NCBI RefSeq assembly: GCF_001428665.1
Contig: NZ_LMIJ01000003.1
Span: 165,873 to 229,872, forward strand
Direction: 5' to 3'
DNA length: 64,000 nucleotides
Source of the DNA: Acidovorax sp. Root219
Lineage (GTDB): Bacteria > Pseudomonadota > Gammaproteobacteria > Burkholderiales > Burkholderiaceae_C
Shown piece after piece: positions 2,184 through 63,262 of the stretch. The notes beneath the pieces are model-generated. The model made no database searches, was not told the DNA's origin, and was given only the letters and a program-made list of their open reading frames with translations. Each line of letters starts with the position of its first letter. Positions within the stretch are counted from its first letter, which is position 1. Both the position numbers and the translations under genes were made by a program.

Positions 2184-5084
2184 TCAGCCTTCGAGCAGTT
2201 GGCGCAGCACGAACGGCAGAATGCCGCCCGCCTGGTAGTAGTCCACCTCGATGGGGGTGTCGATGCGCAGCGTGACCACCACCTCCTGGCTGCTGCCGTC
2301 AGCCCGGCGAATCACCAGGGTGGCGTCGCTCTGGGGCGTGAGCGCGGGGTCGGGCAGCACGTTGATGGTTTCGTTGCCGGTCAGGCCCAGCGACTCCCAC
2401 GAATCCGTGCCCTTGAACTGCAGGGGCAGCACGCCCATGCCCACCAGGTTGGAGCGGTGGATGCGCTCGAAGCTGCGCGCCACCACGGCCTTGATGCCCA
2501 AGAGCTGCGTGCCCTTGGCGGCCCAGTCGCGGCTCGATCCGGTGCCGTATTCCTCGCCCGCGAAGATCACCGTGGGTGTCTTTTGCGCCATGTACTGCAT
2601 GGCTGCGTCGAAGATGAACATCTTCTCGCCCTGCAGCGGCCCTTCGCTCTGGAACACGGTCACCCCGCCTTCCTCGCGCGAGCCATCGGCCGTGGGCGGG
2701 AGCATGAGGTTCTTGATGCGCACGTTGGCGAAGGTGCCGCGCATCATCACGTCGTGGTTGCCGCGGCGTGCGCCGTAGCTGTTGAAGTCGGCCTTCTGCA
2801 CACCGTTGAGCTGCAGCCACTGGCCGGCGGGCGAGGTGGCCTTGATGGAGCCCGCAGGAGAGATGTGGTCGGTGGTGATGGAGTCGCCGAACAACGCCAT
2901 GATGCGCGCGCCGTGCACAGCGGAGGCCGTCGCGGCACCCTGCTCGAGCGTGAATTGGGCGAAGAACGGCGGCTCGGCGATGTAGGTGCTGGCCGGCCAG
3001 GTGTACGAGTTTCCGCTCACGCCCTTGATCTTTTCCCAGAGCTTGCCGGGGTCTGTGGCAACCTTGGCGTAGTTCTCGCGGAAGGCCTTGCCGTTCATCG
3101 CGAACTTCATGAGCTTGTGCACTTCCTCGCTCGTCGGCCAGATGTCGCCCAGGTAGATGTCGCGGCCACCCTTGCCCTTGCCCACGGGCTCGGTCATCAG
3201 GTCCTTGAGCACCGTGCCGGCGATGGCATAGGCCACCACCAGCGGCGGGCTGGCCAGGAAGTTGGCCTTGAGGTTGGGGTGGATGCGCGCCTCGAAATTG
3301 CGGTTGCCCGAGAGCACGGCCGCACAGATGAGGTCGTTGCTGGTAATGGCTTCGTTGAGCTCGGGCGTGAGGTCGCCCGCATTGCCGATGCAGGTGGTGC
3401 AACCATAGCCCGCCAGCGCAAAGCCCAGCTTCTCCAGGTAGGGCAGCAGGCCGGTCTCGGTGAGGTAGTCGGTGACGATGCGCGAGCCGGGGGCCAGCGA
3501 GGTCTTGATGTGCGGCTGGACCTTGAGCCCCGCCTCCACCGCCTTCTTGGCCAGCAGGCCGGCGGCCAGCAGCACGCTGGGGTTGGAGGTGTTGGTGCAG
3601 CTGGTGATGGCGGCGATCAGCACGTCCCCATTGCCCACCGTGGGGTCGGCGCCCTTGGTGGGCATGGTGGCCGCTGCGTCGGCATGGGCCGTGGCCAGCG
3701 CGGGCTTGTTGCCCTCCATCTCGGCCAGGGAGCGCGGCGCGCCTGCGGGAGCAGGTTTGTCCTTGGGCGCCAGCTCTTGAACCATATCCTGCCCACGGTG
3801 GATGTGGTGGCGGGTGAGCAGCAGTTCGGCCGGGCGGTTGAAGCCGTTCTCGGCATTGGACTTGCTGAACAGGTCGGCGAACTGGCTGCTGACCTTGCCC
3901 AGCTCGATCCGGTCCTGCGGCCGCTTGGGGCCGGCCAGGCTGGGGGTCACGCTGCCCAGGTCGAGCTTGACGACCTGCGAGTAGTCGATCTCGCCGGCCA
4001 GCGGCACGCCGAACAGGCCCTGGGCCTTGAAGTAGGCCTCGAAGGCCTCGATCTCGGCCTTGGTGCGGCCCGTGCCCTGGAAGTAGTCGATGGTCTTCTC
4101 ATCCACCGGGAAGAAGCCCATGGTGGCACCGTACTCGGGTGCCATGTTGCCGATGGTGGCCCGGTCGGGCAGCGCCAGGGTGCGCGTGCCCTCGCCGAAG
4201 AACTCGACGAACTTGCCCACCACCTTGTGCTGGCGCAGCAGCTCGGTCACGGTGAGCACCAGGTCGGTGGCGGTCACGCCCTCGCGCAGCTGGCCGGTCA
4301 TCTCGAAGCCCACCACGTCGGGCGTGAGGAAGTACACGGGCTGGCCCAGCATGGCGGCCTCGGCCTCGATGCCGCCCACGCCCCAGCCGACCACGCCGAT
4401 GCCGTTGATCATGGTGGTGTGGCTGTCGGTTCCCACCAGGGTGTCGGGGTAGTGGACGCCTGCCTTGGTCTTGTGCACGCCGCGCGCCAGGTACTCCAGG
4501 TTCACCTGGTGCACGATGCCGAAGCCCGGCGGCACCACGCCGAAGGTGCTGAAGGCCTGCATGCCCCACTTCATGAACTCGTAGCGCTCACGGTTGCGCT
4601 GGAACTCGAGCTTCATGTTGAGGTCGAGCGAATTCTTCTTGCCGTAATAGTCGACCATGATGGAGTGGTCCACCACCAGATCGACTGGCACCAGGGGTTC
4701 GATCTTCTTGGGGTTCTTGCCCAGCCTGGCAGCCACGCTGCGCATGGCGGCCAGGTCGGCCAGCAGCGGCACGCCGGTGAAGTCCTGCAGCACCACGCGC
4801 GATACGACGAAGGGGATCTCGTCCTTGCGCTCGGCCTTGGGCGCCCAGTGCGCGAGCTGGTGCACATGCTCGGCCGTGACCTTGCGGCCGTCGCAGTTGC
4901 GCAGCACCGATTCGAGCACGATGCGGATGGACACCGGCAGGCGGTTGATTTGCGGAAACTGTTTGGCCAGGGCTGGCAGGGAATAGAGCTGTCCGGTCTT
5001 GCCCGACGCGGTCTTGAAACTCTTGAGCGTGTTGGCAAACGCGTGGCGGGCGGGCTGGGGCGACGACTTGGTCGATGTGGCCAT
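2184..5084 (-). CDS. acnA: Aconitate hydratase A
   Basis: This 966-residue protein is a full-length AcnA/IRP-type aconitase, converting citrate to isocitrate in the TCA cycle. The three [4Fe-4S] ligands are visible in SCTN and in GCTTCIGN (two cysteines), and substrate-loop motifs include VGTDSHTT and [12 protein letters not shown]. The start MATSTKSS is preferred over an upstream TTG because CAGGAG lies at SD distance from it. A roughly 100-residue insert rich in Ala and Pro sits before the [12 protein letters not shown] core. It stands alone, not beside prpC/prpB genes, so a role in methylcitrate metabolism is less likely. The 171 bases upstream hold no recognised gene. Confidence 0.97.
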
Positions 5085-5255
5085 GGCTGACTCCTGTGTA
5101 AGCGACAAGGCCTATTCTGTCAGTCCCACGCGGCGGAGCCAACGTTGGGGGTATGCAGGGAGGCGGCAACTGCCGCCCATCGCCATGGAAAAGGGCCTCA
5201 CAGGGCCCCTCCGGTACACGCGCAAGAGCGCCAAGTGCTATTTAATACAGAGCAT

Positions 5256-5660
5256 TCAAGCCATTGCAGGCAACGGCAAACGGCGCATGCCAAACCATTG
5301 CAGCTCGGCCAGCAGGCCTACCGAAACCACATGCACGACCAGATAGGCCTGGCCCCACACGCTGGGCGCGATGGCCGATGACAGCAGCAGTGCCAGGCTG
5401 GCGAGGGCCCAGGCGGCATTGCCCACGATCAACAGCCACAGCAGGCTGCGGGGGGTGTTGCGCTGGCTTGCAATCGCCATGGCCAGAACCGCATAGGCAA
5501 GGAGCGCCAGGCCACTGGCCGAGACCAGCCCCACCGGCAGCCCGAGCCACTCGGCGAGCGTCTCGGTCAGCGCCAGGTGCAGGGCGCCGAGCAGCACGCC
5601 CGTGGCGGCATCGAACCAGACCACGGCACGCAGGAACGAGGGAGAGGACAGAACGGACAT
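5256..5660 (-). CDS. Small four-helix integral membrane protein
   Basis: The 134-residue product starts at MSVLSSPSF, behind a strong AAGGAGT ribosome site. It has four predicted membrane helices (about 10-32, 42-64, 73-95 and 102-124) and few charged residues except in the loops. Proteins of this size and shape occur widely in Betaproteobacteria as uncharacterised membrane proteins. It is divergent from the XRE regulator at 5780, and the 119 bases between them must hold both promoters, so the regulator may control it. No enzymatic motif is visible. Confidence 0.7.
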   Translation of the reverse strand: MSVLSSPSFLRAVVWFDAATGVLLGALHLALTETLAEWLGLPVGLVSASGLALLAYAVLAMAIASQRNTPRSLLWLLIVGNAAWALASLALLLSSAIAPSVWGQAYLVVHVVSVGLLAELQWFGMRRLPLPAMA

Positions 5661-5779
5661 GGTGGACTCCTTGGGATCTTTTCGGGTTGAAGGAGCCTCC
5701 ATGGTCGCGGCCGGGCTGCACCGCGTCGATGACATGCCAGGTAATGGCCGGCATGCCAACTGGCCCTAGGATGGAGGGC

Positions 5780-6652
5780 ATGACCAGCACCCACCGCCCC
5801 CCACGCCCCACCCTGCCCCACCGGCCTGCGGCCGGGGGCCACCGCAGCCTTCCGGGGCCTGCCTCGTTCGGCGACCATCTGCGCACCTGGCGCCAGCAGC
5901 GCCACCTGAGTCAGCTGGAGCTGGCCGACGAGGCGGACATCTCCACCCGCCACGTGAGCTTCATGGAGACAGGCCGCACCAACCCCAGCCGCGAGATGGT
6001 GCTGCGGCTGTGCGAGCGCCTGGCCATCCCGCTGCGCGAGCGCAATGCCCTGCTGGTGGCGGCCGGCTATGCGCCCATGTACCGCGAGCGCGCGCTGGAC
6101 GACCCGGCCCTGGCTGCCGCGCGCAAAGCGGTGGAACTGGTGCTCAAGGGCCACGAACCCTGCCCCGCGATTGCACTGGATCGCTGCTGGAACATCGTGG
6201 CCACCAACCGCGCTGCCCAGGCGCTGCTGGCCAACCACGTGAGCCCTGAACTGCTGAAGGGGCCGGTGAATGTGTTCCGCCTCAGCCTGCACCCCAAGGG
6301 CCTGGCACCGCACATCGCCAACCTGGCCCAGTGGCGGGCCCACCTGTTCGAGCGCCTGCGCCAGCAAATACAGGCCACGGCGGACCCCGTGCTCATCGCA
6401 CTGCAGGCCGAGTTGCTGGAATACCCCGCGCCCGAGGAATCGAGCTCCCTGGTGCTCGACGGGGAATTGCTGGGTGTGGTAATGCCCTTCTGCTTTCAAA
6501 GCGCCCGGGGAACACTTTCGTTTATGAGCACCACCACCATATTTGGAACCCCGGTGGATGTGACCCTGCAGGAACTGGCCGTGGAATCATTCTTTCCGGC
6601 CGACGAATTCACGGCCCAGGTATTGCGCGAGATCGCTGCCGCCCCCATCTGA
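5780..6652 (+). CDS. XRE-family transcriptional regulator with MmyB-like ligand domain
   Basis: The 290-residue protein has an N-terminal helix-turn-helix (about 30-85), with the typical RxxRxLSQLELADxAxIS..HVSFxExGRTxPS pattern. The C-terminal half has the motifs of the MmyB-like PAS-type ligand domain, including DRCWNIVATNRAAQALL and a late GTPVDVTLQELAVESFFPAD block. Such regulators often control a neighbouring gene in response to a small molecule. The ATG at 5771 is equally possible; 5780 was chosen because GGAGG lies just before it. It is divergent from the small membrane protein at 5256-5660. Confidence 0.85.
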   Translation: MTSTHRPPRPTLPHRPAAGGHRSLPGPASFGDHLRTWRQQRHLSQLELADEADISTRHVSFMETGRTNPSREMVLRLCERLAIPLRERNALLVAAGYAPMYRERALDDPALAAARKAVELVLKGHEPCPAIALDRCWNIVATNRAAQALLANHVSPELLKGPVNVFRLSLHPKGLAPHIANLAQWRAHLFERLRQQIQATADPVLIALQAELLEYPAPEESSSLVLDGELLGVVMPFCFQSARGTLSFMSTTTIFGTPVDVTLQELAVESFFPADEFTAQVLREIAAAPI

Positions 6653-6720
6653 TCAGGCGCCAGCCGCGGGCGCGCCCCCACACAGCCAGCCGGATCGCAC
6701 GTTTATGGTGCGTACCACGC

Positions 6721-6747
6721 AAAAAGCCCGCAGATGCGGGCTTTTTT
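6721..6747. terminator. Bidirectional rho-independent terminator
   Basis: The hairpin is AGCCCGC, loop AGAT, GCGGGCT, flanked by five A residues on the left and six T residues on the right. It can therefore terminate both the XRE gene (plus strand) and the convergent H-NS gene (minus strand). Confidence 0.9.
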
Positions 6748-6789
6748 ATGCAACGCGGCAACAGGCCGCTGTCCAATGGATTCAATCGA

Positions 6790-7080
6790 TCAAATGGCGA
6801 ACTTTTCGCGGTTCTCGTTTTGAATCCACTTGGGTGCCTTGCCACGGCCCGTCCAGGTCTGGCCTGTGGATGGATCGCGGTATTTAGGAGCCACCTTGGT
6901 GCCAGCGCTTGCGCTGCGTGCACGGCCACTGGGGAACACGTCCTGTGCGGTCAGGCCGAACTCCGCCACCAGCGCACGCACCTGCGATACGGCGTCCGAC
7001 AACTCGCGCTTGCGGGCTTCACCGATTTGCTGTTCCAGGGCGTCGCGTTGCTTGAGGAGTTCTTTGTAGCTGGTTGTCAT
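6790..7080 (-). CDS. H-NS family nucleoid-associated DNA-binding protein
   Basis: The 96-residue protein has an N-terminal coiled coil (about 1-45, oligomerisation) and the C-terminal H-NS DNA-binding core KYRDPSTGQTWTGRGKAPKW near residues 66-85. The minor-groove motif is the TGRGKAP stretch. This is the short form common in Burkholderiales, where several paralogues usually occur per genome. It probably silences AT-rich or transferred DNA such as the island near 59-61 kb, but that link is inference. No clear SD lies before the ATG. A sigma-70-like promoter is visible upstream. Confidence 0.93.
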   Translation of the reverse strand: MTTSYKELLKQRDALEQQIGEARKRELSDAVSQVRALVAEFGLTAQDVFPSGRARSASAGTKVAPKYRDPSTGQTWTGRGKAPKWIQNENREKFAI

Positions 7081-7116
7081 GGTATGTGTGGCTGCTAGGT
7101 GGACAAGGAAGGCCCC

Positions 7117-7146
7117 ATTATAGGAATAATGGGCAAAATTTTCAGG
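7117..7146 (-). promoter_or_regulatory. Sigma-70-like promoter of the H-NS gene
   Basis: On the minus strand a perfect -10 hexamer TATAAT is preceded, after 17 bases, by CTGAAA (four of six matches to -35). The -10 overlaps a small inverted repeat, CCATTAT/ATAATGG, that could be an autoregulatory site. The start would give a leader of about 30 bases. Confidence 0.55.
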
Positions 7147-7217
7147 GTTTGCGAAAAAATTCGTGACAAACCGTTGAAACCCCTCACCAGTGAAAATCAT
7201 TTCACAGCCCCAGGTAA

Positions 7218-8522
7218 TCAGCCGGACCGATCGGCCAGGTCCATTTGCGCCAATACACGGTCGATTCTCTTGCCCTCCAGGCCAAGCACCTCGAATATCC
7301 ACCCGGCACAGGCAATGCGTTCGCCCACTGCCGGCAAATGGCCTGATTCAGCCATCAACAATCCCGCCAGTGTGTTGTAACGGCCGCGCTCCTCTCCCGG
7401 TAAATCGCGAATATCGAGCCGCGCCTTGAGTTCGCTGACGGGCATCAGGCCGTCGAGCAGCCACATGCCGTCCTCTTGCTGGGTGGCCCAGGCATCCGTC
7501 GCAGCCCCGGGCTGCAGTTCTCCGGTAATCGCCTCCAGCAGATCGCGTGGTGTCATGATGCCCTGCACCACGCCATATTCGTCCACCACGAAGACCATGC
7601 GGCCCGAGCGTGCGCGGAACTGCTCCAGCAGTTCCATGCCGCTCAGGGTTTCGGGCAGAAAGGCGGCCGGCAGGGCGTACTGCTCGATGGCGCCTGGGGC
7701 CTCCACGCCCAGCTCCAGCAGGCGCGCTACGCTGATCAGGCCCACCACCTCATCGAGCGAGCCCCTGCAGACGGGGTACCAGGAATGGGCACCATGGTCA
7801 CCACCGGTGCCGGCCATGCGCAGGCCTTCGGCCACGGTGAGCCGGGCATCGAGCCACTGCATGTCCGTGCGGGGCACCATCAGCGAGGTCAGCGGCCGGT
7901 CGTCGAGGCGGAACACATTGCGCACCATCTGGTGCTCGTGGTGCTCGATCACCCCGGCATCGCGCCCTTCTTCCAGGCTGGCCACGATCTCTTCCTCCGT
8001 CACGGCGCGGCCCGCGTTGTTGTCGATGCGCAGCAGCCCCAGCACGCCCTGGGTGGACAGCGACAGCAGCCGCACGAAGGGCTTGGCCACCAGGGCCACC
8101 CAGGTCATGGGCCGAGCCACCAGGCGGGCCACGGTTTCGGGGTAGAGCTGGCCGATGCGCTTGGGCACCAGCTCACCGAAGACGATGGTGATGAAGGTGA
8201 TCACCGTGACCACCAGCGCCGTGGCCGTGATGCCGGAGGCGCGCTCGGGCATGCCCAGCGCCAGCAGCCAGCGCGCCAGGTCATCGCTGAACGCGGCTTC
8301 GCCGATGATGCCGTTGAGCATGCCGATAGAGGTGATGCCCACCTGCACGGAGGACAGGAACTGGGTGGGGTTCTCCAGCAGCGTGAGCGAGGCCTGCGCC
8401 CCCTTGTCGCCGCCCTCGGCCATGGCGGCCAGGCGCGACTTGCGGCTCGATGCCAGCGCCAGCTCGGACATGGCAAATACGCCATTGAGCAGCGTGAGCA
8501 GCGCAATCAGCAGAAAATCCAT
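7218..8522 (-). CDS. CNNM/CBS-domain membrane protein of the CorC/HlyC family
   Basis: The 434-residue protein has an N-terminal CNNM (DUF21) transmembrane domain (about 1-165, starting MDFLLIALLTLLNGVFAMSE), a CBS pair (about 195-330, with LMVPRTDM and GIMTPRDLLEAI) and a C-terminal CorC/HlyC transporter-associated domain (about 345-430). Family members are linked to magnesium or cobalt efflux and to membrane-stress tolerance; the older name haemolysin is misleading. It is divergent from apaH with only 21 bases between the start codons, so the two share a promoter region. Confidence 0.93.
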   Translation of the reverse strand: MDFLLIALLTLLNGVFAMSELALASSRKSRLAAMAEGGDKGAQASLTLLENPTQFLSSVQVGITSIGMLNGIIGEAAFSDDLARWLLALGMPERASGITATALVVTVITFITIVFGELVPKRIGQLYPETVARLVARPMTWVALVAKPFVRLLSLSTQGVLGLLRIDNNAGRAVTEEEIVASLEEGRDAGVIEHHEHQMVRNVFRLDDRPLTSLMVPRTDMQWLDARLTVAEGLRMAGTGGDHGAHSWYPVCRGSLDEVVGLISVARLLELGVEAPGAIEQYALPAAFLPETLSGMELLEQFRARSGRMVFVVDEYGVVQGIMTPRDLLEAITGELQPGAATDAWATQQEDGMWLLDGLMPVSELKARLDIRDLPGEERGRYNTLAGLLMAESGHLPAVGERIACAGWIFEVLGLEGKRIDRVLAQMDLADRSG

Positions 8523-53985: not shown

Positions 53986-54011
53986 GGGCGCATTCCAAAA
54001 GGAGTGCGCCC
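53986..54011. terminator. Hairpin between the allantoin operon and ggt
   Basis: An 11-base stem with one G-T pair (arm GGGCGCATTCC) and an AAAA loop, followed by GTTTGTC, may end the puuE operon or lie in the ggt leader. The rest of the 173-base gap has no recognised feature except AGAGGAG before ggt. Confidence 0.55.
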
Positions 54012-54069
54012 GTTTGTCATTCCAAGACCCGGATAGACATAAAGATCAATAACAGAGGAGCACCTACCA

Positions 54070-55863
54070 ATGAGCATCCGCCACACCTTGCTGGCCAGCA
54101 GCGTCGCACTGGCCCTGGCCAGCCTGACCGCCTGCGGCAGCACCACCCCAGCCGTTACGGCTTCGGCCCCGCCAGTGGCCGCCGTGCAGCAGACCGCAGC
54201 GGCACAGGCCGCCAGCGCCGCCTATGACTTCGACATGGACGTGTTCCACCCCGTGGTGGCGCGCAACGGCATGGTTGCCACCGAGCAGGAGCTGGCCTCG
54301 CAGATCGGCCTGGACATCCTCAAGGCAGGCGGCAACGCGGTGGACGCGGCCGTGGCCGTCGGCTTCGCGCTGGCCGTGGCCCTGCCCAATGCGGGTAACC
54401 TGGGCGGCGGCGGTTTCATGATGGTGCACGACGCCAAGACCGGCAAGAGCGTGGCCCTGGACTTCCGCGAAGTGGCGCCCAACAAGGCCACGCGCGACAT
54501 GTACCTCGACGCCAAGGGCAATGTGGTGGACGGCAAGTCGCTGTTCACCCACTACGCCGTGGGCGTGCCCGGCACCGTGGCCGGCATGGAGCATGCGCTC
54601 AAGACCTGGGGCACCCTGCCACTATCGCGCGTGATTGCCCCCGCCATCGAGCTGGCCGACAAGGGCTTCCCGGTAAGCGAGACCCTGGCCAAGATACTGG
54701 ACCAGGAAAAGAAGAACATGGGCAAGTGGCCCGCCACCCAGGCCATCTTCTGGAAGAACGGCGCGCCCCTGAAGGTGGGCGACGCGCTGGTGCAGAAAGA
54801 CCTGGCCCAGTCGATGCGCCTCATCGGCCAGCAGGGCGCCAAGGCGTTTTATGAAGGCGAAATCGCCCAGAAGATCGCCGCCGAGATGGCACCGCACGCC
54901 GGCGCCCTCACGCTGCAAGACCTGCGCGAATACAAGGTGGCCGAGCGCGTGCCCACCCGCGGCACCTACCGCGGCTATGAGATCGTGACCATGCCGCCAC
55001 CCTCCTCCGGCGGCCCGCACCTGGTGCAGATCTTGAACATGCTGGAGCCCCTGCCCCTGGCCCAGTGGGGCCCCAACAGCGCCCAGACCATCCACTACAT
55101 GGCCGAGAGCATGAAGCTGGCGTACGCCGACCGCTCCGAGTACCTGGGCGACCCGGATTTCGTGAAGATCCCGCTCAAGGGCCTGACCTCCAAGCGCTAC
55201 GCCGAGTCGCTGGCCAAGGGCATTGATGGCAACACCGCACGCAGCGGCAAGAGCATCAAGCCCGGCCAGCCCCAGCCGTACGAAAGCGACCAGACCACCC
55301 ACTACTCGGTGGTGGACAAGGCCGGCAACGCCGTGGCCGTGACCTACACGCTGAACACCAACTTCGGCAGCGGCATCGTCGCCAAGGGCACGGGCATCAT
55401 GCTCAACAACGAGATGGACGACTTCTCGGCCAAGCCCGGCGTGGCCAATGCCTACGGCCTGGTCGGCGGCGACGCCAACGCCGTGGCCGCCAAGAAGCGC
55501 CCCCTGTCGTCCATGACCCCCACCCTGGTGCTCAAGGACGGCAAGCCCACCCTGGTGACCGGCAGTCCCGGCGGCGCCCGCATCATCACCACGGTGCTGC
55601 AGACGGTGGTCAACACCATTGACTTCGGCATGAACCCCGCCGAGGCCGCCGCCGCACCGCGTGTGCACCACCAGTGGACGCCTGACGAACTGCGCGTGGA
55701 AAAGGGTTTGTCGCCCGACACCCTGGCACTGCTCAAGCAGCGCGGCCACAACATCGCGGTGAAGCCATCGATGGGGCGTACGCAGACGATTCAGTTGCGT
55801 GGCGGGGCGTTGTATGGGTACTCGGATCCGCGCAATCCGGATGGGAAGACGTTGGGGTATTGA
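54070..55863 (+). CDS. ggt: Gamma-glutamyltransferase
   Basis: The 597-residue precursor has a lipoprotein-like signal peptide (ASLTAC, Cys near residue 17), so it is probably periplasmic or outer-membrane anchored. The autocatalytic processing site is the QTTHYSVVD block, where the second Thr becomes the N-terminal nucleophile of the small subunit. Other landmarks are NAGNLGGGGFM and LSSMTPTLVLKDGKP. It splits glutathione and related gamma-glutamyl compounds. The last 276 bases are repeated at 58165-58443. Confidence 0.96.
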   Translation: MSIRHTLLASSVALALASLTACGSTTPAVTASAPPVAAVQQTAAAQAASAAYDFDMDVFHPVVARNGMVATEQELASQIGLDILKAGGNAVDAAVAVGFALAVALPNAGNLGGGGFMMVHDAKTGKSVALDFREVAPNKATRDMYLDAKGNVVDGKSLFTHYAVGVPGTVAGMEHALKTWGTLPLSRVIAPAIELADKGFPVSETLAKILDQEKKNMGKWPATQAIFWKNGAPLKVGDALVQKDLAQSMRLIGQQGAKAFYEGEIAQKIAAEMAPHAGALTLQDLREYKVAERVPTRGTYRGYEIVTMPPPSSGGPHLVQILNMLEPLPLAQWGPNSAQTIHYMAESMKLAYADRSEYLGDPDFVKIPLKGLTSKRYAESLAKGIDGNTARSGKSIKPGQPQPYESDQTTHYSVVDKAGNAVAVTYTLNTNFGSGIVAKGTGIMLNNEMDDFSAKPGVANAYGLVGGDANAVAAKKRPLSSMTPTLVLKDGKPTLVTGSPGGARIITTVLQTVVNTIDFGMNPAEAAAAPRVHHQWTPDELRVEKGLSPDTLALLKQRGHNIAVKPSMGRTQTIQLRGGALYGYSDPRNPDGKTLGY

Positions 55864-55938
55864 TGCACGGCCTGACTTGCCCGCTCCGCAGGCCCGTCAT
55901 GGTTGATCCATAGCTCAGCCAACAAGGCACCAACGAAC

Positions 55939-55970
55939 AAAGGCCGCGCCCTGTGAGGGGCGTGGCCTTT
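55939..55970 (+). terminator. Rho-independent terminator of ggt
   Basis: A GC-rich stem (AAAGGCCGCGCCC with GGGGCGTGGCCTTT, one G-T pair) with loop TGTGA lies 76 bases past the ggt stop and between ggt and the convergent membrane-gene remnant. Confidence 0.75.
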
Positions 55971-55994
55971 GTCATTGTTGTGCCTGTGCCGGGT

Positions 55995-56110
55995 CTATCG
56001 CCTCAACACACTGGCCCAAAAATCATCGCCGTAGCGGACTGCGCAGAACGCAAACACCAGGCAGAAGCCCATGGTGATGGCCAGCATCGGCAAAAAGCCG
56101 GAGAGCTTCA
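55995..56110 (-). pseudogene. 3' fragment of the small membrane protein gene
   Basis: The fragment encodes about 38 C-terminal residues (KLSGFLPMLAITMGFCLVF onward, ending in LRR) that match the intact gene at 58544-58762 almost exactly. The N-terminal half, including the first membrane helix, is missing; the sequence upstream is unrelated. Together with the ggt tail it marks the left copy of a duplication. Confidence 0.75.
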
Positions 56111-56214
56111 GGTTTATGGCACGAGCCTGCCCAAAACCCCTGCCATACTTGGATCTGGTGTGGTTGATTATCCTATCCGTTGGTTTCACCTGACTCCCTT
56201 TGCGACAGCCCCGC

Positions 56215-57897
56215 ATGCCTGCCACTCTCACGCCGTCCGCAAAACTGCTGCAACTGCTACCCGAGGCGGTGGTGCAGACCAATGCGCTGTGGGAGATCAC
56301 TTACCTGAATCCGGCGTGGACAACGCTCACCGGCCATTCGGTGGAGGCAGCGCTCGGCAGGTCTCTGCTTGAATTTGTGCATCCCGGCGACATTGGCACC
56401 ATGCGCTCGGGCATGCCTGTGTTCCGGTTGCGATTTGCCGACGCGAACTATCGCTGGGTGCGTCTGAAACTCCACCCGGAGACGGATGCAGCGGAGCGGG
56501 TGATCAGCCGCCAGGGTGTCCTGATCGAGATCACCGAGGTCACCGAGCAGGTGCTGGTTGAGATTCGCCAGCGCTTTTTGCGCTTGCTGGAAACCATTGA
56601 TGGCGTAGTTTGGGAGGCTGAAATCGGCGTGGGCAATACTTTCCTTAGCCCGCAGGTCGAACGCTTGTTCGGTTTCTCCGTGGAGGAGTGGCGGTCTGAC
56701 CCGGGCTTTTGGCGGGCGCATGTGCATCCCGATGATCTAGCGCAGGCCGTGCTTATCGATGATGCCGCCTACAACGCGACGCACAGCTATGCCTACGAGA
56801 TGAGCTATCGGCTGATTGCAAAATCCGGCAAGGTGGTGTGGGTGCGCGATCTGTGCCGCGCAGTGGTCGAGCCGGGGCGGCCGAACCGCATGATCGGCCT
56901 GATGATCGACGTCACCCAGCAGAAGAACACCGAACTTGAGTTGTTGCGCTCCGAAAACCGCTATTTGCTGGCGACCCTTGGATCCAATGACGGCATCTGG
57001 TACTGGGACTTGCGAACTGACGCCCTGCATGTGTCCGGGCGCTTTCACCAGATCGTCGGGCTGGGTAGCGGCGATCTTGTACACGACGGCGGCTGGAGCT
57101 TTCTGGGGCAACTCATCGATCCCGAAGATCGCGCGCGCGTGCAGGCGGCCTACCGCAGGCATCTGTTGGGGAACAGCCCGAACTTTTCGGTGGATTTCCG
57201 CGCGTTCCACGCGGATGGACGGCTGGTGTGGGTCAATTGGCGCGGGCTCGCCGAGTTTGAAGACGGCGTTGCGGTGCGCATGGCGGGCTCGTTGAGCGAT
57301 CTGGCTGACCGTGGCAGTTCCTACGATGCGCTGACCAGCCTGCCCGGCCGGCCGTTGTTCCGCGATCGCCTCGCGAATCTCATGGCGCTGCACCAGAACG
57401 AGGCTGCGAATGGTGATGGCGTGCCAACACGCGATGGAGCCACCATGTTCGCCGTGCTGCTGCTGGATCTCAACGGGTTCAAAGCCGTCAATGACAACTA
57501 CGGGCACCATGTGGGCGACCGGCTGTTGCAGCAGGTGGCGCGGCGGCTCGAATCCTGCGTGCGGGCGGTTGATCTGGTCGCCCGCATGGGTGGCGACGAA
57601 TTCAATGTGCTGTTGGAGTCCATTGATCCCGCCGAAGCCAGCAACCGCGCTCAACAGATCGCCGCCGCCCTCGCAGCGCCTTATGTGGTCGGCGAACACA
57701 CCGTGATCAGTGGCGCGAGTATTGGACTTGTCAGCAGTGCATCAAGGCTGGCGACGGTGGACGAATACCTGCGCGCCGCAGACACCGCAATGTACCAGGC
57801 CAAAAGCCAGTCATCGGGCGTGTGCGTGTTTCAACAAAAGGTGCCAGAGACGACTTCCTGCGCGGCTGATCAGCAGCGACCGAAATACGCACCATAG
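56215..57897 (+). CDS. PAS-PAS-PAS-GGDEF diguanylate cyclase inside a duplicated locus
   Basis: The 560-residue cytoplasmic protein has PAS repeats at about 10-115, 120-240 and 245-365 and a GGDEF domain at about 380-540. The active site is intact (MGGDEF) with I-site RAVD five residues upstream. There are no membrane helices. Base composition is lower than in most of the window (one 60-base line, 57421-57480, counts 37 G+C). It lies between the two diverged copies of the ggt tail, so it was probably acquired or relocated with that event. Confidence 0.92.
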   Translation: MPATLTPSAKLLQLLPEAVVQTNALWEITYLNPAWTTLTGHSVEAALGRSLLEFVHPGDIGTMRSGMPVFRLRFADANYRWVRLKLHPETDAAERVISRQGVLIEITEVTEQVLVEIRQRFLRLLETIDGVVWEAEIGVGNTFLSPQVERLFGFSVEEWRSDPGFWRAHVHPDDLAQAVLIDDAAYNATHSYAYEMSYRLIAKSGKVVWVRDLCRAVVEPGRPNRMIGLMIDVTQQKNTELELLRSENRYLLATLGSNDGIWYWDLRTDALHVSGRFHQIVGLGSGDLVHDGGWSFLGQLIDPEDRARVQAAYRRHLLGNSPNFSVDFRAFHADGRLVWVNWRGLAEFEDGVAVRMAGSLSDLADRGSSYDALTSLPGRPLFRDRLANLMALHQNEAANGDGVPTRDGATMFAVLLLDLNGFKAVNDNYGHHVGDRLLQQVARRLESCVRAVDLVARMGGDEFNVLLESIDPAEASNRAQQIAAALAAPYVVGEHTVISGASIGLVSSASRLATVDEYLRAADTAMYQAKSQSSGVCVFQQKVPETTSCAADQQRPKYAP

Positions 57898-58164
57898 GGT
57901 CACCGCACAGCATTGGCGTGGCAAGCCTTCTCCACATCCAACCAGCCCGGCGGGTCATCGGCTTCGGAGTGCAGGTACTCCTGCCATTTGGAAGGATCGG
58001 CCTGGAAGCGCAGAGGGCCTTCAGGGGATACCAAGGCAAACAGGTGGCCATTCCCATGGAGGTTTTTCTTTCCTTTGTTGCATGAAGGCCTGGGCGGGCT
58101 TGCAAGCCAGCCCCAGCGCCTGCCCATCATTGTGGCCAAAGCGGCTGCCGTACCCCAACGTTTA
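57898..58164 (-). other. Tail of the inserted segment with a possible short reading frame
   Basis: No recognised gene lies here. A minus-strand frame at 57900-58139 (79 codons) contains HLFALVSPEGPLRFQAD and may be a remnant or a small gene; start and SD are unclear. The final bases run directly into the decayed ggt copy. Confidence 0.3.
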
Positions 58165-58443
58165 CGTCACTGTGGTGCTGCAGACGTTGGTGAACACGAT
58201 TGACTTCGGAATGAACCCGCCGAAGCTGCTGCCGCACCGCGCGTCCACCCCCAGTGGACGCCTGACGAGCTGCGCGTAGAAAAGGGCTTGTCGCCCGACA
58301 CCCTGGCACTGCTCAAGCAGCGCGGCCACAACATCGCGGTGAAGCCGTCGATGGGGCGGACGCAGACGATCCAGCTGCGGGGTGGAGCGCTGTATGGGTA
58401 CTCGGATCCACGGAATCCGGATGGGAAGACGTTGGGGTATTGA
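58165..58443 (+). pseudogene. Decayed 3' fragment of a second ggt copy
   Basis: The fragment reads like the last 90 codons of ggt, including VEKGLSPDTLALLKQRGHN-type sequence, and ends at the same stop. A single base is missing soon after the shared DFGMNP codons, which puts the first part out of frame with the rest. No start or signal sequence is present, so it cannot make a functional product. Confidence 0.85.
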
Positions 58444-58659
58444 TGCTTAGAGAATGGCCTGCCTCGGCAGGTCACTACCCCGCCAGCAAAGGCCGCGCCC
58501 CTCACTGGGAGCGGCCATTTTCTTTGCAGCGCCTGTGCCAGTGTCATCGCCTCAACAGGCCAGCCCAAAAGCCATCACCATAGCGCACTGCGCAGAACGC
58601 GAACACCAGGCAAAAGCCCATGGTGATGGCCAGCATCGGCAAAAAGCCGGAGAGCTTCA
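58165..58659. repeat. Direct repeat, right copy: decayed ggt tail and intact membrane-gene end
   Basis: This is the partner of 55588-56110. It includes its own GC-rich terminator-like hairpin at about 58488-58524. In this copy the membrane gene is intact and ggt is truncated, the mirror of the left copy. Confidence 0.85.
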
Positions 58660-58762
58660 AGCGAAAGACCATCCAGAAGCCCACGAGTGCACCAGCCAAT
58701 GCGCCGCAGACGAAGCGCACCACGGTTTCAAGCGGGTCATGTTTTTTCTCGCCGCAGGACAT
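58544..58762 (-). CDS. Small inner-membrane protein of 72 residues
   Basis: The protein has two membrane helices (about 15-35 and 42-60) and ends with VRYGDGFWAGLLRR. No family was recognised. GAGGGTGAT lies before the ATG; a GTG nine bases upstream is another possible start. A 3' fragment of it is found at 55995-56110. Confidence 0.7.
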   Translation of the reverse strand: MSCGEKKHDPLETVVRFVCGALAGALVGFWMVFRLKLSGFLPMLAITMGFCLVFAFCAVRYGDGFWAGLLRR

Positions 58763-58853
58763 TCGGATCACCCTCGCCCTTTAAAAGCATGGCCGTATTG
58801 CGACCACGCCTGAGCGGGTGGACTCGCACAAATCCGAGGAAATCAGGAGCTCA

Positions 58854-59804
58854 TCAGTGCTCAGTTCTCAGCAAGAGGTAGGGACTGCTCTTTTCCTGCT
58901 CCAGCGCTTCGATGTAATCACTGCCACTGATCCTCCGTGTACGCAAGTAGTCAATCAGAAAAGGCTTGCTCGCCGCTGCGTCGCTCGCATCACGCAAAAT
59001 TTTTACAGCAGCCAGCCCTTGGTCGACTGCGGGTCCAAACGACAAGGGGGTCAGATGGGTGAAGAGGTGGTTGTAATCGGTCGATACAGCGTCCGCAACG
59101 GCCAACGCGTGACGCAGTTCGTTGGTTCGAATTCTGCAGTCGATTCGCACACTGTTGCAGAGCATCAGCATCTGAGCCAGCTGCCAGAACACCTCGGGAC
59201 TGATCGGTCCCTCAGCTTTGACCATGAACGCGATTTCACCCTCAAAGTATGCCGCTTGGTCAGCCAGCCCCGCAGCAACTTCAGAATACTCGGGCCGCGG
59301 GTCAGAGAGTGCTTGCGCTTGCTGCGCCCGCTGCAACAGGCTTTTCGTGAGATGCAATTGTTTACGCAAATCCCGGTGACTCAGGCTCTCAAACTCAGAC
59401 CGTAGCGTTTCACCAAGGCGATCCATGCGAATTTCCAATGCATTGAATCGCTTGTGCATGTAGTAGAAGCCCGCTACGCTGACACCCACTCCTGCAAGAG
59501 AGACCCCAAGGGTGGCCACTTGCAGCAACTGCAGATTTTCCATCATGGCCTTCAGCTGGCTGATTTGAATGCCGGTATACATGCTGGCTCCAGCATTCAC
59601 CACATCAGCCACCATTGACAAAGGTGCGAAAGGACCCGCAGCGAGACTGGATAGAACGGATTGCGCGGCCCCAGTCTCCTGAACATGTCGAACGATTTGT
59701 CCGGTCACCGAATCCTTCAGAAGAGTTCCATACCGTACCACCTCGCCAGACGCTAGCCGACCCAGCAGTTCTGCGGGTATCTCAAAGGGAATGGTGCTCA
59801 GCAT
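58854..59804 (-). CDS. Unrecognised protein with a central hydrophobic segment and coiled coil (island gene 3)
   Basis: The 316-residue protein belongs to no family I recognise. Residues about 45-115 are rich in Ala, Gly and Val, ending in a probable membrane helix (TLGVSLAGVGVSVAGFYYM). A charged coiled coil follows (about 117-165), then a helical C-terminal region to the end. This layout recalls helical membrane-acting effectors, but that is only a resemblance. It overlaps the preceding gene by seven bases, with GGAGG before its ATG, so the two proteins are made together. Composition is clearly less GC-rich than the flanks. Confidence 0.75.
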   Translation of the reverse strand: MLSTIPFEIPAELLGRLASGEVVRYGTLLKDSVTGQIVRHVQETGAAQSVLSSLAAGPFAPLSMVADVVNAGASMYTGIQISQLKAMMENLQLLQVATLGVSLAGVGVSVAGFYYMHKRFNALEIRMDRLGETLRSEFESLSHRDLRKQLHLTKSLLQRAQQAQALSDPRPEYSEVAAGLADQAAYFEGEIAFMVKAEGPISPEVFWQLAQMLMLCNSVRIDCRIRTNELRHALAVADAVSTDYNHLFTHLTPLSFGPAVDQGLAAVKILRDASDAAASKPFLIDYLRTRRISGSDYIEALEQEKSSPYLLLRTEH

Positions 59805-60505
59805 GATTCTTTGACCTCCATCAGTTTTCGGGAAAGCTGCGACCCTTGGTCACAAAAGTGCATGGCAAACCCCTCGGGGCCCAACAACAAGGTCTGTACT
59901 CGCGCCTCGATCAAGCTCCTGTTGCCAGGCTTGAAGCCGATGCCATAGAGGCTCGCGCATTCTGAGTTCAGCATGCGCATGTGGATAGCCAGATCGGCCT
60001 TGCCAAACAAAGCCCACTTCCGTGCGCAGGCATTCAGATTGGCCTCCTCTTTTCGCAGAGCGGTGATCAACGGCATCCGAACTATCCGAACAAAGCTGTC
60101 CTGAAGCACCTCATTTGCCGGGCGCGTGATCAGCTTTCGGAACACGCTGGTATCCCTAAGCTCTGCATCCACTTGATAAAAAAATGCCTGTTGCAACTCG
60201 GTGATGATGTTCGTAACGTTGGCGTGGAAGTTGTCTCTCCAATCGAGCACTTCGCGCCTGAAGGCCATGTCAGGCAGCTTTCCAAAATCGACAAGGGATT
60301 CGATGGGATGCTCGCTCTGACCGAGTGCGTCAGGTGCAGCGGCGGTGTCCGGCAAATTCGCCGTTTCGTCTTTGCCCTCTTCGCTTGGGAAGAACGAACG
60401 GATGTCTCTTTGCAGGAAGGCAACTGTCTTGTCCCACCGTCCTTCAGGCTTCGCCAGGTTTTCGGGGGAGCGAGACAACGCCGCTTGGGTTGAAATATTA
60501 TTCAT
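59798..60505 (-). CDS. Unrecognised helical soluble protein (island gene 2)
   Basis: The 235-residue protein has a disordered, acidic N-terminal region (about 1-65) and a helical core (about 70-235) with three or four cysteines. No membrane helix, enzyme motif or known domain is visible. It starts 31 bases after the WYL regulator gene and overlaps island gene 3 by seven bases, so it belongs to a three-gene operon. Confidence 0.72.
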   Translation of the reverse strand: MNNISTQAALSRSPENLAKPEGRWDKTVAFLQRDIRSFFPSEEGKDETANLPDTAAAPDALGQSEHPIESLVDFGKLPDMAFRREVLDWRDNFHANVTNIITELQQAFFYQVDAELRDTSVFRKLITRPANEVLQDSFVRIVRMPLITALRKEEANLNACARKWALFGKADLAIHMRMLNSECASLYGIGFKPGNRSLIEARVQTLLLGPEGFAMHFCDQGSQLSRKLMEVKESC

Positions 60506-60536
60506 TTGGGTTCGTCAATTGAGCTATGGTCAGTTC

Positions 60537-61454
60537 TTACTTCGTTCTGCATTCGCGGCAAGCAGCCAGATATTCCTCAAGTTCTCGCTCAAGGCTCTCT
60601 TGCCAAGGTGCGGGATTGACAATCCGAATGTGCGGTAGCCAATATCGAATGATCGGAAGAATTTGCGTTGGGTGTCCAACGGTAGTGCTGATCTGCAAAG
60701 ACCCATCACTGCTTTCCAATTTGACTATTTGATTCGGCACTAACTGCCTGCGCTTGAAGTAACTGGCCACAGGGGCGGCGACTGAAAGCATGACCTCATG
60801 GCTGTCTTCGGAATGCCAAGCCCCCTCCTGTTTCGCGATGGTGATTTCCAAGGCCGGGTCTTTGTGGAAAGAGCTTTCGGTGACCAACACGTGCAGCATC
60901 TTGCCGATCCCAAAAGTCTTGTACTTTCCTTGGTCAACGGCTGCGAGGTACCAAATGCCTTTGAGATTGAGCAGGCGGTAGGGCGCAACGGCCTTGTAGG
61001 CCTTCGGCACTCCGGCCACCGCCATCTCGAAGTCGAGCAAGCGGGACTCCATCACTGCGGCTTCAAGCTGCCGAAAGATTGGCTGGCTCTCACTCAGATC
61101 TTCATAGTGATGGCCTTTGACAAGCCAAGGTACAGCAATCGCCTTGTCAAAGATACTTCTGAGAGATTCTGCCGACAGGGACGGGAAAAGTCCTTTCACC
61201 CCAGCCAGGGCCGCGAAGCGCTCGATGTCGTTGTAGTTGAGTTTTCCCAAGTAAGCTGGGCTGAGCTGGTACCGGCCCTGAATCTTGGTGAGAGGCAGGT
61301 ATGCAAGTCGTACGCGCAGGTCGCGTTGGATGGTCCTTACATGGACACCGAACTCCTGTGCGAGATCCTCAGGATCAAGCTTTTCAGCCTGATTGAGCTT
61401 GATCAGTATCTGCGACAAACGATACGCGATCGTGTCATGTTGGCCGTTTGCCAT
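60537..61454 (-). CDS. WYL-domain HTH transcriptional regulator (island gene 1)
   Basis: The 305-residue protein has an N-terminal DeoR-type HTH (about 12-70, PEDLAQEFGVHVRTIQRDLR) and a central WYL domain with GIWYLAAVDQGKYKTFGIGK near residues 165-185. WYL proteins sense nucleic acids or nucleotides and often control anti-phage or mobile genes such as BREX and CBASS loci. Here it heads an operon of two unrecognised genes. A 60-base line at its 3' end (60541-60600) counts 31 G+C, far below the roughly two-thirds typical of the window. Confidence 0.88.
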   Translation of the reverse strand: MANGQHDTIAYRLSQILIKLNQAEKLDPEDLAQEFGVHVRTIQRDLRVRLAYLPLTKIQGRYQLSPAYLGKLNYNDIERFAALAGVKGLFPSLSAESLRSIFDKAIAVPWLVKGHHYEDLSESQPIFRQLEAAVMESRLLDFEMAVAGVPKAYKAVAPYRLLNLKGIWYLAAVDQGKYKTFGIGKMLHVLVTESSFHKDPALEITIAKQEGAWHSEDSHEVMLSVAAPVASYFKRRQLVPNQIVKLESSDGSLQISTTVGHPTQILPIIRYWLPHIRIVNPAPWQESLERELEEYLAACRECRTK

Positions 61455-61577
61455 TCCGCCCCATTCCTTGTTTTAGAAGCCACCTGATCCATTGCGGAAA
61501 TTTTGCCTCGGTCTGCTGCCAACGTGCCGCGCACGATACACGAACAGCGCGTCTACCACCCGAATGAAATTTGCACT

Positions 61578-61745
61578 CTATGCCTTGCTGCGAAGCCGTG
61601 TCCAACTCCAGACCAAGACCGCCCCAACCACCAGAACAAGCAGCAGCTTCAATGCCAAGCTCAGAAAGCCCACAGTTGCTGACATCACGCCGAGTTTGAT
61701 CAGCATCCAGGAAAGGGTAGCGCCCAAAGCAGCAATCCAAAACAT
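61578..61745 (-). CDS. Small hydrophobic membrane protein of 55 residues (possible island gene 0)
   Basis: The frame starts MFWIAALGATLSWMLIKLG and has two membrane helices (about 2-22 and 26-46) with basic residues at the end (RLRSKA). It lies 123 bases before the WYL gene in the same direction. Hydrophobic pattern and composition look coding. The SD is weak. It could be part of the island or belong to its upstream control region. Confidence 0.55.
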   Translation of the reverse strand: MFWIAALGATLSWMLIKLGVMSATVGFLSLALKLLLVLVVGAVLVWSWTRLRSKA

Positions 61746-61981
61746 TTGATGTCTCTATTGAAATTAAGGAGACCTCACTTTGAAACATCGTTTGGACAGG
61801 TGGTGTCGCAAATCTGGCAAGGCATTCAAATTCAGAAAATTGCTCGGAGTTTGGCAGCAAGATTCCGCTGCACCTCACAGGGGATCAGCTACGGGCATAC
61901 CCTGATACGCCCAGCTCCCAACTTGCCTACATTTCTTGTATGCAAGATTTGCTTTCAAGACACAACTGAAGGAGACGGGGC
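61746..61981. other. Intergenic region between the island and dctA
   Basis: These 236 bases hold no recognised gene on either strand. They must contain the dctA promoter and perhaps the promoter of the divergent island genes. GGAGACGGGGC before the dctA ATG is its ribosome site. Confidence 0.6.
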
Positions 61982-63262
61982 ATGCTGCGGTTTTTCAAAT
62001 CCCTTTTTGGCCAGGTGATCCTGGCCCTCATAGCCGGCGTGGTGGTGGGCCTGGTGTGGCCCGATACCGCCGTGGCCCTGAAGCCCCTGGGCGACGGGTT
62101 CATCAAGCTGATCAAGATGCTGATCCCACTGATCGTGTTCTGCGTGGTGGTGCATGGCATCGCGGGCACGGGGGACCTGAAGCGGGTGGGCCGGGTGGGC
62201 ATCAAGGCGCTGGTCTACTTCGAGGTGGTGACCAGCATTGCGCTGGTGCTGGGCCTGGTGCTGGCCTTTGTGTTCGAGCCTGGGGTGGGCATGAACATCG
62301 ATCCCAAGGCGCTGGACCCCAAGGCCATGGGCGCCTATGTGGAGAACGCGGGCAAGCTCACGGGGGGCGGGTTCACGGACTTTCTGCTCAAGCTGATACC
62401 CAACACGGCGGTCAGCGCGTTTGCCAATGGCGACGTGCTGCAGGTGCTGCTGTTCTCCATCGTGTTCGGCTGCGCGCTGGCGATGCTGGGTGAGCGCGGG
62501 GCGCGGGTCACGGTGCTGATCGAGGACCTCTCGCACGTACTGTTCAAGACCATGGGCATCATCATCAAGCTGGCGCCGCTGGGCGTGCTGGGTGCGATTG
62601 CTTTCACCGTGGGCAAGTACGGCATTGGCTCGCTCAAGCAGTTGGGCATGCTGGTGGTGCTGTTCTATGCGGCGGTGGCGATCTTCGTGGTGGTGGTGCT
62701 GGGCACCATCATGCGGGTGTCGGGCTTCAGTCTGTTCAAGCTGCTGCGCTACCTGCGCGAGGAGCTGGCGGTGGTGTTTGCCACCACCTCGTCGGACAGC
62801 GTGCTGCCGCAGATCATGGCCAAGCTCAAGCACATGGGCATTCGCGATTCGACGGTGGGGCTGGTGATCCCTACGGGGTATTCGTTCAACCTGGATGCGT
62901 TTTCGATCTACATCACGCTGGCGGCGGTGTTCATTGCGCAGGCGACCAACACGCCGATCTCGATGGCGGATCTGCTGACGATTCTGGCGATATCGCTGGT
63001 TACCTCGAAGGGCGCGCACGGGGTGCCGGGCTCGGCCATCGTGGTGCTGGCGGCCACGCTGCAGGCGATACCGGCCATCCCGGCCATCGGGCTGGTGCTG
63101 GTGCTGTCGGTGGACTGGTTCATGGGCATTGCCCGGGCCCTGGGCAACCTGATCGGCAACTGCGTGGCCACGGTGGCCGTGGCCGCGTGGGAGGGCGATA
63201 TTGACCGCGAGCGCGCCCATGCGGTGCTGGACGGCAAGGCCGTCGAATCGCTCAAGGAGTGA
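61982..63262 (+). CDS. dctA: C4-dicarboxylate/proton symporter
   Basis: The 426-residue membrane protein belongs to the DAACS family (DctA/GltP). Characteristic segments are KMLIPLIVFCVVVHGIAG, the serine-rich FATTSSDSVLPQIM and PTGYSFNLDAFSIYITLAAV, which form the substrate and cation sites. It imports succinate, malate or fumarate. A strong SD precedes the ATG, and two bases separate its stop from the next gene, so the solute-binding protein is in the same operon. Confidence 0.94.
   Translation: MLRFFKSLFGQVILALIAGVVVGLVWPDTAVALKPLGDGFIKLIKMLIPLIVFCVVVHGIAGTGDLKRVGRVGIKALVYFEVVTSIALVLGLVLAFVFEPGVGMNIDPKALDPKAMGAYVENAGKLTGGGFTDFLLKLIPNTAVSAFANGDVLQVLLFSIVFGCALAMLGERGARVTVLIEDLSHVLFKTMGIIIKLAPLGVLGAIAFTVGKYGIGSLKQLGMLVVLFYAAVAIFVVVVLGTIMRVSGFSLFKLLRYLREELAVVFATTSSDSVLPQIMAKLKHMGIRDSTVGLVIPTGYSFNLDAFSIYITLAAVFIAQATNTPISMADLLTILAISLVTSKGAHGVPGSAIVVLAATLQAIPAIPAIGLVLVLSVDWFMGIARALGNLIGNCVATVAVAAWEGDIDRERAHAVLDGKAVESLKE

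Follow-up and report, generated by a model that had tools for sequence, protein, structure and literature searches.

A predicted Juk-type antiphage operon with a different partner family at the ggt-dctA junction of Acidovorax sp. Root219

Does the compact, GC-poor gene cluster between a duplicated ggt region and dctA in Acidovorax sp. Root219 encode an antiphage system, and how much of that system is new? The cluster occupies positions 58854-61745 of a 64,000-nucleotide stretch of contig NZ_LMIJ01000003.1 (the window), and the original prediction took it for an undescribed defense or toxin module made up of a regulator, a partner and a membrane effector. We conclude that it is probably a Jumbo phage killer (Juk)-type antiphage operon in which the partner comes from another family, its activity being predicted from sequence comparison. 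The effector, gene B, belongs with the known system, and the new part is its partner, gene A. Four open reading frames (ORFs) make up the cluster:

58854..59804, minus strand: gene B (316 amino acids), JukB-like membrane effector according to PADLOC JukB, Foldseek (9jht), alignments and the structure model
59798..60505, minus strand: gene A (235 amino acids), helical partner with a "REVLDWRD" motif at residues 84-91, defined by A-family searches
60537..61454, minus strand: WYL-domain helix-turn-helix (HTH) transcription regulator (305 amino acids), with Pfam HTH_11, WYL and WCX above cut-off
61578..61745, minus strand: 55-amino-acid hydrophobic (membrane) protein, with relatives next to WYL where the operon recurs

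The coordinates bear out the packed, single-strand arrangement that was first described: the WYL gene lies upstream of A with a gap of 31 bases, and the A and B reading frames overlap by 7 bases. Identification of the first large gene as a WYL-HTH regulator also stands, with an N-terminal HTH accompanied by WYL and WCX domains. Neither A nor B produced a Pfam match at an expectation value (E) of 1 or less or an NCBIfam match above cut-off, and no housekeeping family was hit. By Pfam, then, both proteins are of no known family, as had been claimed; for B the claim fails in PADLOC, where it is a relative of JukB.

Gene B matched the PADLOC JukB model PDLC04114 over residues 20-151 (E 7.8e-7), and all 28 aligned B-family proteins, including that of the window, matched PADLOC JukB at E<=0.01 (best 5.2e-15). 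When the model of B was compared with the PDB by Foldseek, the two JukB chains of 9jht took ranks 1 and 2 (probability 0.93 and 0.98), which weakly supports the kinship at the level of the predicted fold. The hydrophobic segment expected in B is a glycine-rich helix (GVGVSVAG) that peaks at residues 93-111, with a Kyte-Doolittle value of 1.82. It is preceded by a conserved N-terminal module, "LLK..TG.I..H.QE", in which G26, K30, T34, G35, I37, H40, Q42 and E43 are invariant among 25 sequences, and the C-terminal part is helical. The invariant N-terminal residues may serve in docking or triggering, and the membrane part may be the GVGVSVAG helix.

The relationship to JukB can also be followed through other genomes, whose loci are referred to here by L numbers. 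A profile of 25 window-close B proteins found a relative in L035 (E 2.1e-18) that is itself a PADLOC JukB match (E 1.1e-6) and is preceded by JukA (E 1.8e-19). A wider B profile, which includes L035, matched the effectors of L160 (E 1.3e-25; PADLOC JukB E 8.8e-7) and L161 (E 2.6e-20), and the gene preceding the latter is a JukA match (E 4.2e-6). Sequence comparison places B among the relatives of the Juk pore effector, JukB. The pairs in L160 (3543-5290) and L161 (3093-5028) are Juk-type pairs in genomes of the same family; their effectors are longer (~395 amino acids as read), and only one gene of each pair matched a PADLOC Juk model.

An A-type gene sits directly upstream of B in 33/36 public genome loci. 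The other three comprise L035, with JukA instead, L023, where the contig begins within B, and L013, where none was found. Among the 33, the match in L019 is weak (E 0.013), L034 and L036 carry only fragments of the gene, the locus ends within the gene in L031, a run-on frame contains it in L021, and several loci nearly duplicate one another. A (L/I/V)-x-W-(R/W)-like motif is common to the distant A members, most of which also have a glycine-rich hydrophobic hairpin (L019 does not); the hairpin is missing from the window's A and from those of L002-L012. In keeping with the original description of a soluble, helical protein, the model of the window's A has helices only and its hydrophobicity peaks at 0.89 (Kyte-Doolittle). 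The subfamilies are nevertheless connected: a profile of 15 distant members, with the window's subfamily excluded, found the window's A at E 4.3e-5 and recovered 8/12 members of the same subfamily at E<=1 (missing L004, L005, L010 and L011). A search of the window's genome with an alignment of 16 distant members returned A at E 8.0e-4, and hhalign of the window's subfamily against the distant group gave 88.5% (E 2.7e-6). Of 250 family genomes, three had full A matches, and these are the three that have full A-type B genes; a fourth match covers 33 residues and contains a stop (E 9.9e-4). Distances between A proteins and between B proteins are correlated across 21 loci (r 0.795; 0/5000 permutations as high), as common descent would also give.

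Two further matches to the distant A profile were seen. One, from a class-wide search, lies in genome G116 (E 1.5e-4) and covers the hydrophobic part only. The other is a 192-amino-acid ORF with a glycine-rich hydrophobic stretch in L005 (4378-4956), 388 bases upstream of the soluble A gene; its match (E 5e-5 to 1e-4) is either a chance hydrophobic match or a split-off hairpin.

Identity of A with JukA was considered and set aside. A matched no PADLOC model at E<=1, the window's genome had no match to PDLC04113 (one of three JukA models), and nine distant A partners had no JukA match at E<=1. Against an alignment of five JukA proteins, admittedly thin, hhalign gave 0.1% when the window's subfamily was aligned and 1.7% when the distant group was. 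PDB sequence searches with A and B profiles yielded coiled-coil or designed-helix chance matches only. Of the two proteins by which Juk is recognized, the JukB-family effector is represented by B, and the JukA sensor, by the sequence tests made, is not represented by A, which belongs to a family of its own with an "LDWR" motif.

The cluster stands out from its surroundings in composition, as originally noted. GC content is 0.541 at 58854-61745 vs 0.670 for the whole window, and among the 2,892-base stretches starting outside 54000-62500 (612 stretches in all) the minimum is 0.638. GC at third codon positions is 0.60-0.66 in the island genes, vs 0.905 in ggt and 0.897 in dctA. Two features describe the site:

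58444..61891, no strand assigned: exchanged cargo (~3.4 kb) from the second ggt 3' copy to the dctA upstream region, from blastn of L069, L071, L072 and L075 against the window
58167..58446, plus strand: second copy of the ggt 3' end, forming the left cargo border, from a repeat search; present in L069 and L071 and not in L072-L075

The duplicated locus named in the original prediction is real: the last ~280 bases of ggt (87-92% identical) and 173 downstream bases (83%) are repeated ~2.55-2.58 kb further on. The duplicated stretches (55586-56110 and 58167-58659) enclose a 565-amino-acid ORF (56200-57897), PAS-GGDEF-like by eye, and duplication and ORF are common to L069 and L071 and absent at this place from L072-L075. 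We compared 17 dctA loci of the genus. L072-L075, from four related species, are empty, with dctA following ggt after 195-196 bases; 10/17 hold junction cargo of ~1.8-7.7 kb, and 3/17 are without ggt nearby. L069 has the most similar dctA of the 17 (98.8% identical), and its flanks are 95% identical up to window position 58443 and from 61892. Its own cargo (3080-8392) encodes a CARF protein (PADLOC E 1.5e-126), an ORC-CDC6-like protein, PRTase-CE and a methyltransferase. The right border falls at 61890-61892 in all four relatives compared. From the CARF operon of L069, the empty L072-L075 and the shared flanks, it follows that the ggt-dctA junction exchanges cargo and that one other cargo is a defense-type operon; that it is a dedicated defense site is not proven. 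Elsewhere the junction holds a proline dehydrogenase (L070) or 6-8 kb that is in part metabolic-looking by eye (seven loci, L076-L082). In L071 (10758-12480) it holds two unrecognised ORFs of 192 and 277 amino acids, of which the longer matched ZorA marginally (E 0.0094).

B is present in 2/47 genomes of the genus, and A-B loci were found in genomes labelled Acidovorax, Zoogloea, Dechloromonas, Methylomicrobium, Pseudomonas, Azomonas and several Rhodobacteraceae. Carriage of the island by a phage or plasmid was set aside: phage records gave no match to B, and five plasmid records hold distant relatives (23-39% identity). One distant A-B pair was seen on a 47.9 kb IMG/VR contig (L120).

The three larger genes recur together, as the original prediction would have it. 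WYL relatives lie alongside A-B in L002, L003, L004, L005, L011 and L017, in L005 on the other strand and downstream of B. The 55-amino-acid protein adjoins the WYL gene in L002/L086, L003 and L004 (51-55% identity). Its relatives in L011 (E 1.3e-6) and L005 (E 2.9e-4) are weaker, and one in L012 (E 0.0022), where WYL was not seen, is marginal; none was found in L017 or in 11 B-less WYL loci (L147-L157). Relatives of the window's WYL protein occur in 16/250 family genomes at E<=1e-45. Among the neighbours of these genes are a dynamin-like pair, one MoxR-type ATPase gene and several others that were not recognised. In L148 (2387-7882), a WYL gene whose product is 50% identical to that of the window directly precedes two dynamin-like GTPases (Dynamin_N E 1.9e-24 and 8.4e-15). 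Operons behind WYL relatives in L147 (5374-9022), L149 (2664-6641) and L150 (2789-4884), several of whose genes have hydrophobic stretches, are candidates for further WYL-controlled systems; three proteins scanned from them (two from L147, one from L149) had no Pfam or PADLOC match. Three promoter-like sites were counted where 1.7 were expected, and two terminator-like sites against an expected 4.0, which gave no signal, and no operator repeat stood out.

Computation gave the homology of B to JukB, the pairing of A with B and the position in a site of exchanged cargo. We consider it fairly likely that this is a Juk-type antiphage operon whose sensor has been replaced, A standing in place of JukA. 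In Juk, as PMC13282480 describes it, JukA is the sensor of early phage proteins in the vesicle and JukB, on being recruited, assembles into tetrameric pores; from homology with Juk, B would be expected to act on the membrane and A to decide when. B would sit at or insert into the membrane through its glycine-rich helix and, once triggered, oligomerise and permeabilise either a phage-made vesicle or, in abortive infection, the cell. By the same analogy, A would recognise an infection-specific structure or membrane change and recruit or license B. The WYL protein may repress or induce the operon, and the 55-amino-acid protein may be an accessory of the WYL-bearing subtype. WYL regulators are known to accompany defense systems (PMC9122601, PMC9122588). 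The proposed defense module is supported by the B-JukB relationship, the conservation of the gene set in other genomes, its patchiness and the defense-type cargo at the same site in a close relative; it is only in part undescribed, since its effector falls with the known Juk system. A description of a JukB-type effector with this partner was not found in the literature, a weak negative, as the search did not extend to the partner lists of the primary Juk paper (Cell 2025, 188:2127).

Other readings of the A-B pair must be set against a replaced sensor. The operon could be a Juk system of the ordinary kind, A being a JukA too diverged to recognise. Gene order is identical, the lengths are similar, and distant A members share with JukA a hydrophobic stretch in the protein's second half; set against this, the JukA searches and the hhalign values given above make such divergence quite improbable. 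It is also unlikely, if somewhat less so, that the pair serves envelope maintenance or membrane stress, or is a membrane toxin restrained by A, with WYL answering DNA or membrane stress and no antiphage role. B does have a hydrophobic helix, A could neutralise B, the operons preceded by WYL relatives are varied (among them the dynamin-like pair, the MoxR-type ATPase and unrecognised hydrophobic-stretch genes), and WYL regulators are known, too, from responses to DNA damage. However, patchiness, low GC and the CARF/PRTase cargo of a close relative fit defense better, and B groups with JukB.

A third reading is compatible with the Juk-type one and concerns the origin of A, which could be a shortened dynamin-like protein: a trunk or stalk that is free of a GTPase domain, with a paddle in distant members, and that would sense membrane deformation and bring B there. 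We hold this tentatively, as a possibility with the odds against it. Three of nine distant A proteins matched PADLOC LeoBC (E 6.4e-5 to 2.9e-4), and the top eight structural rows for A include four dynamin-family proteins, with nothing below E 0.5 in Foldseek. Against 31 LeoBC proteins, hhalign gave 15.5% for distant A, 0.6% for the window's subfamily and 0.4% for B. When the distant A partners were compared with single proteins, 15/46 ORFs from the loci of the LeoBC search (a set that includes non-dynamins) outranked all 60 controls, at probabilities of 5.8% or less. No GTPase domain was recognized in A, given its 235 residues, helices-only model and lack of Pfam matches. As a census, the LeoBC family search was useless, since 276/276 genomes and 14/14 controls matched, mostly via the GTPase part; it served only to supply a LeoBC relative. 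A dynamin-trunk origin of A is suggested as a lead only. The broader idea, that pore effectors of JukB type are a common killing module which has been coupled to a second sensor family unrelated to the first, one in which a GTPase-less dynamin trunk senses membrane deformation, is more doubtful still. Were it true, the system would respond to a membrane event of many phages, not to one jumbo-phage protein; in the window's lineage, A would be without the hairpin and a separate 55-amino-acid membrane protein would have joined the operon.

A Juk-type operon with a different partner separates the JukB effector from JukA, pairing the same kind of effector with another protein family, and how differing infection cues switch on a pore effector becomes testable. 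Family A has no model of its own in the Pfam and PADLOC copies searched, and the ggt-dctA junction is a place to seek further defense operons in the genus.

Among known systems, Juk is the closest: the two-gene layout with the partner upstream is shared, and B, a membrane-type effector, shows a relationship to JukB in its sequence and a weak one in its fold, whereas A is not JukA by the tests made and the WYL and 55-amino-acid genes are extra. LeoABC and other bacterial dynamin-like proteins may resemble A in its helical model, which is possibly trunk-like, and in the glycine-rich hairpin of distant members, a possible paddle, but A is without a GTPase domain and homology is only suggestive (the 15.5% above). 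The regulator resembles BrxR/CapW-type WYL regulators as an HTH-WYL-WCX protein beside and upstream of a defense-type operon, a likeness of domains and position alone.
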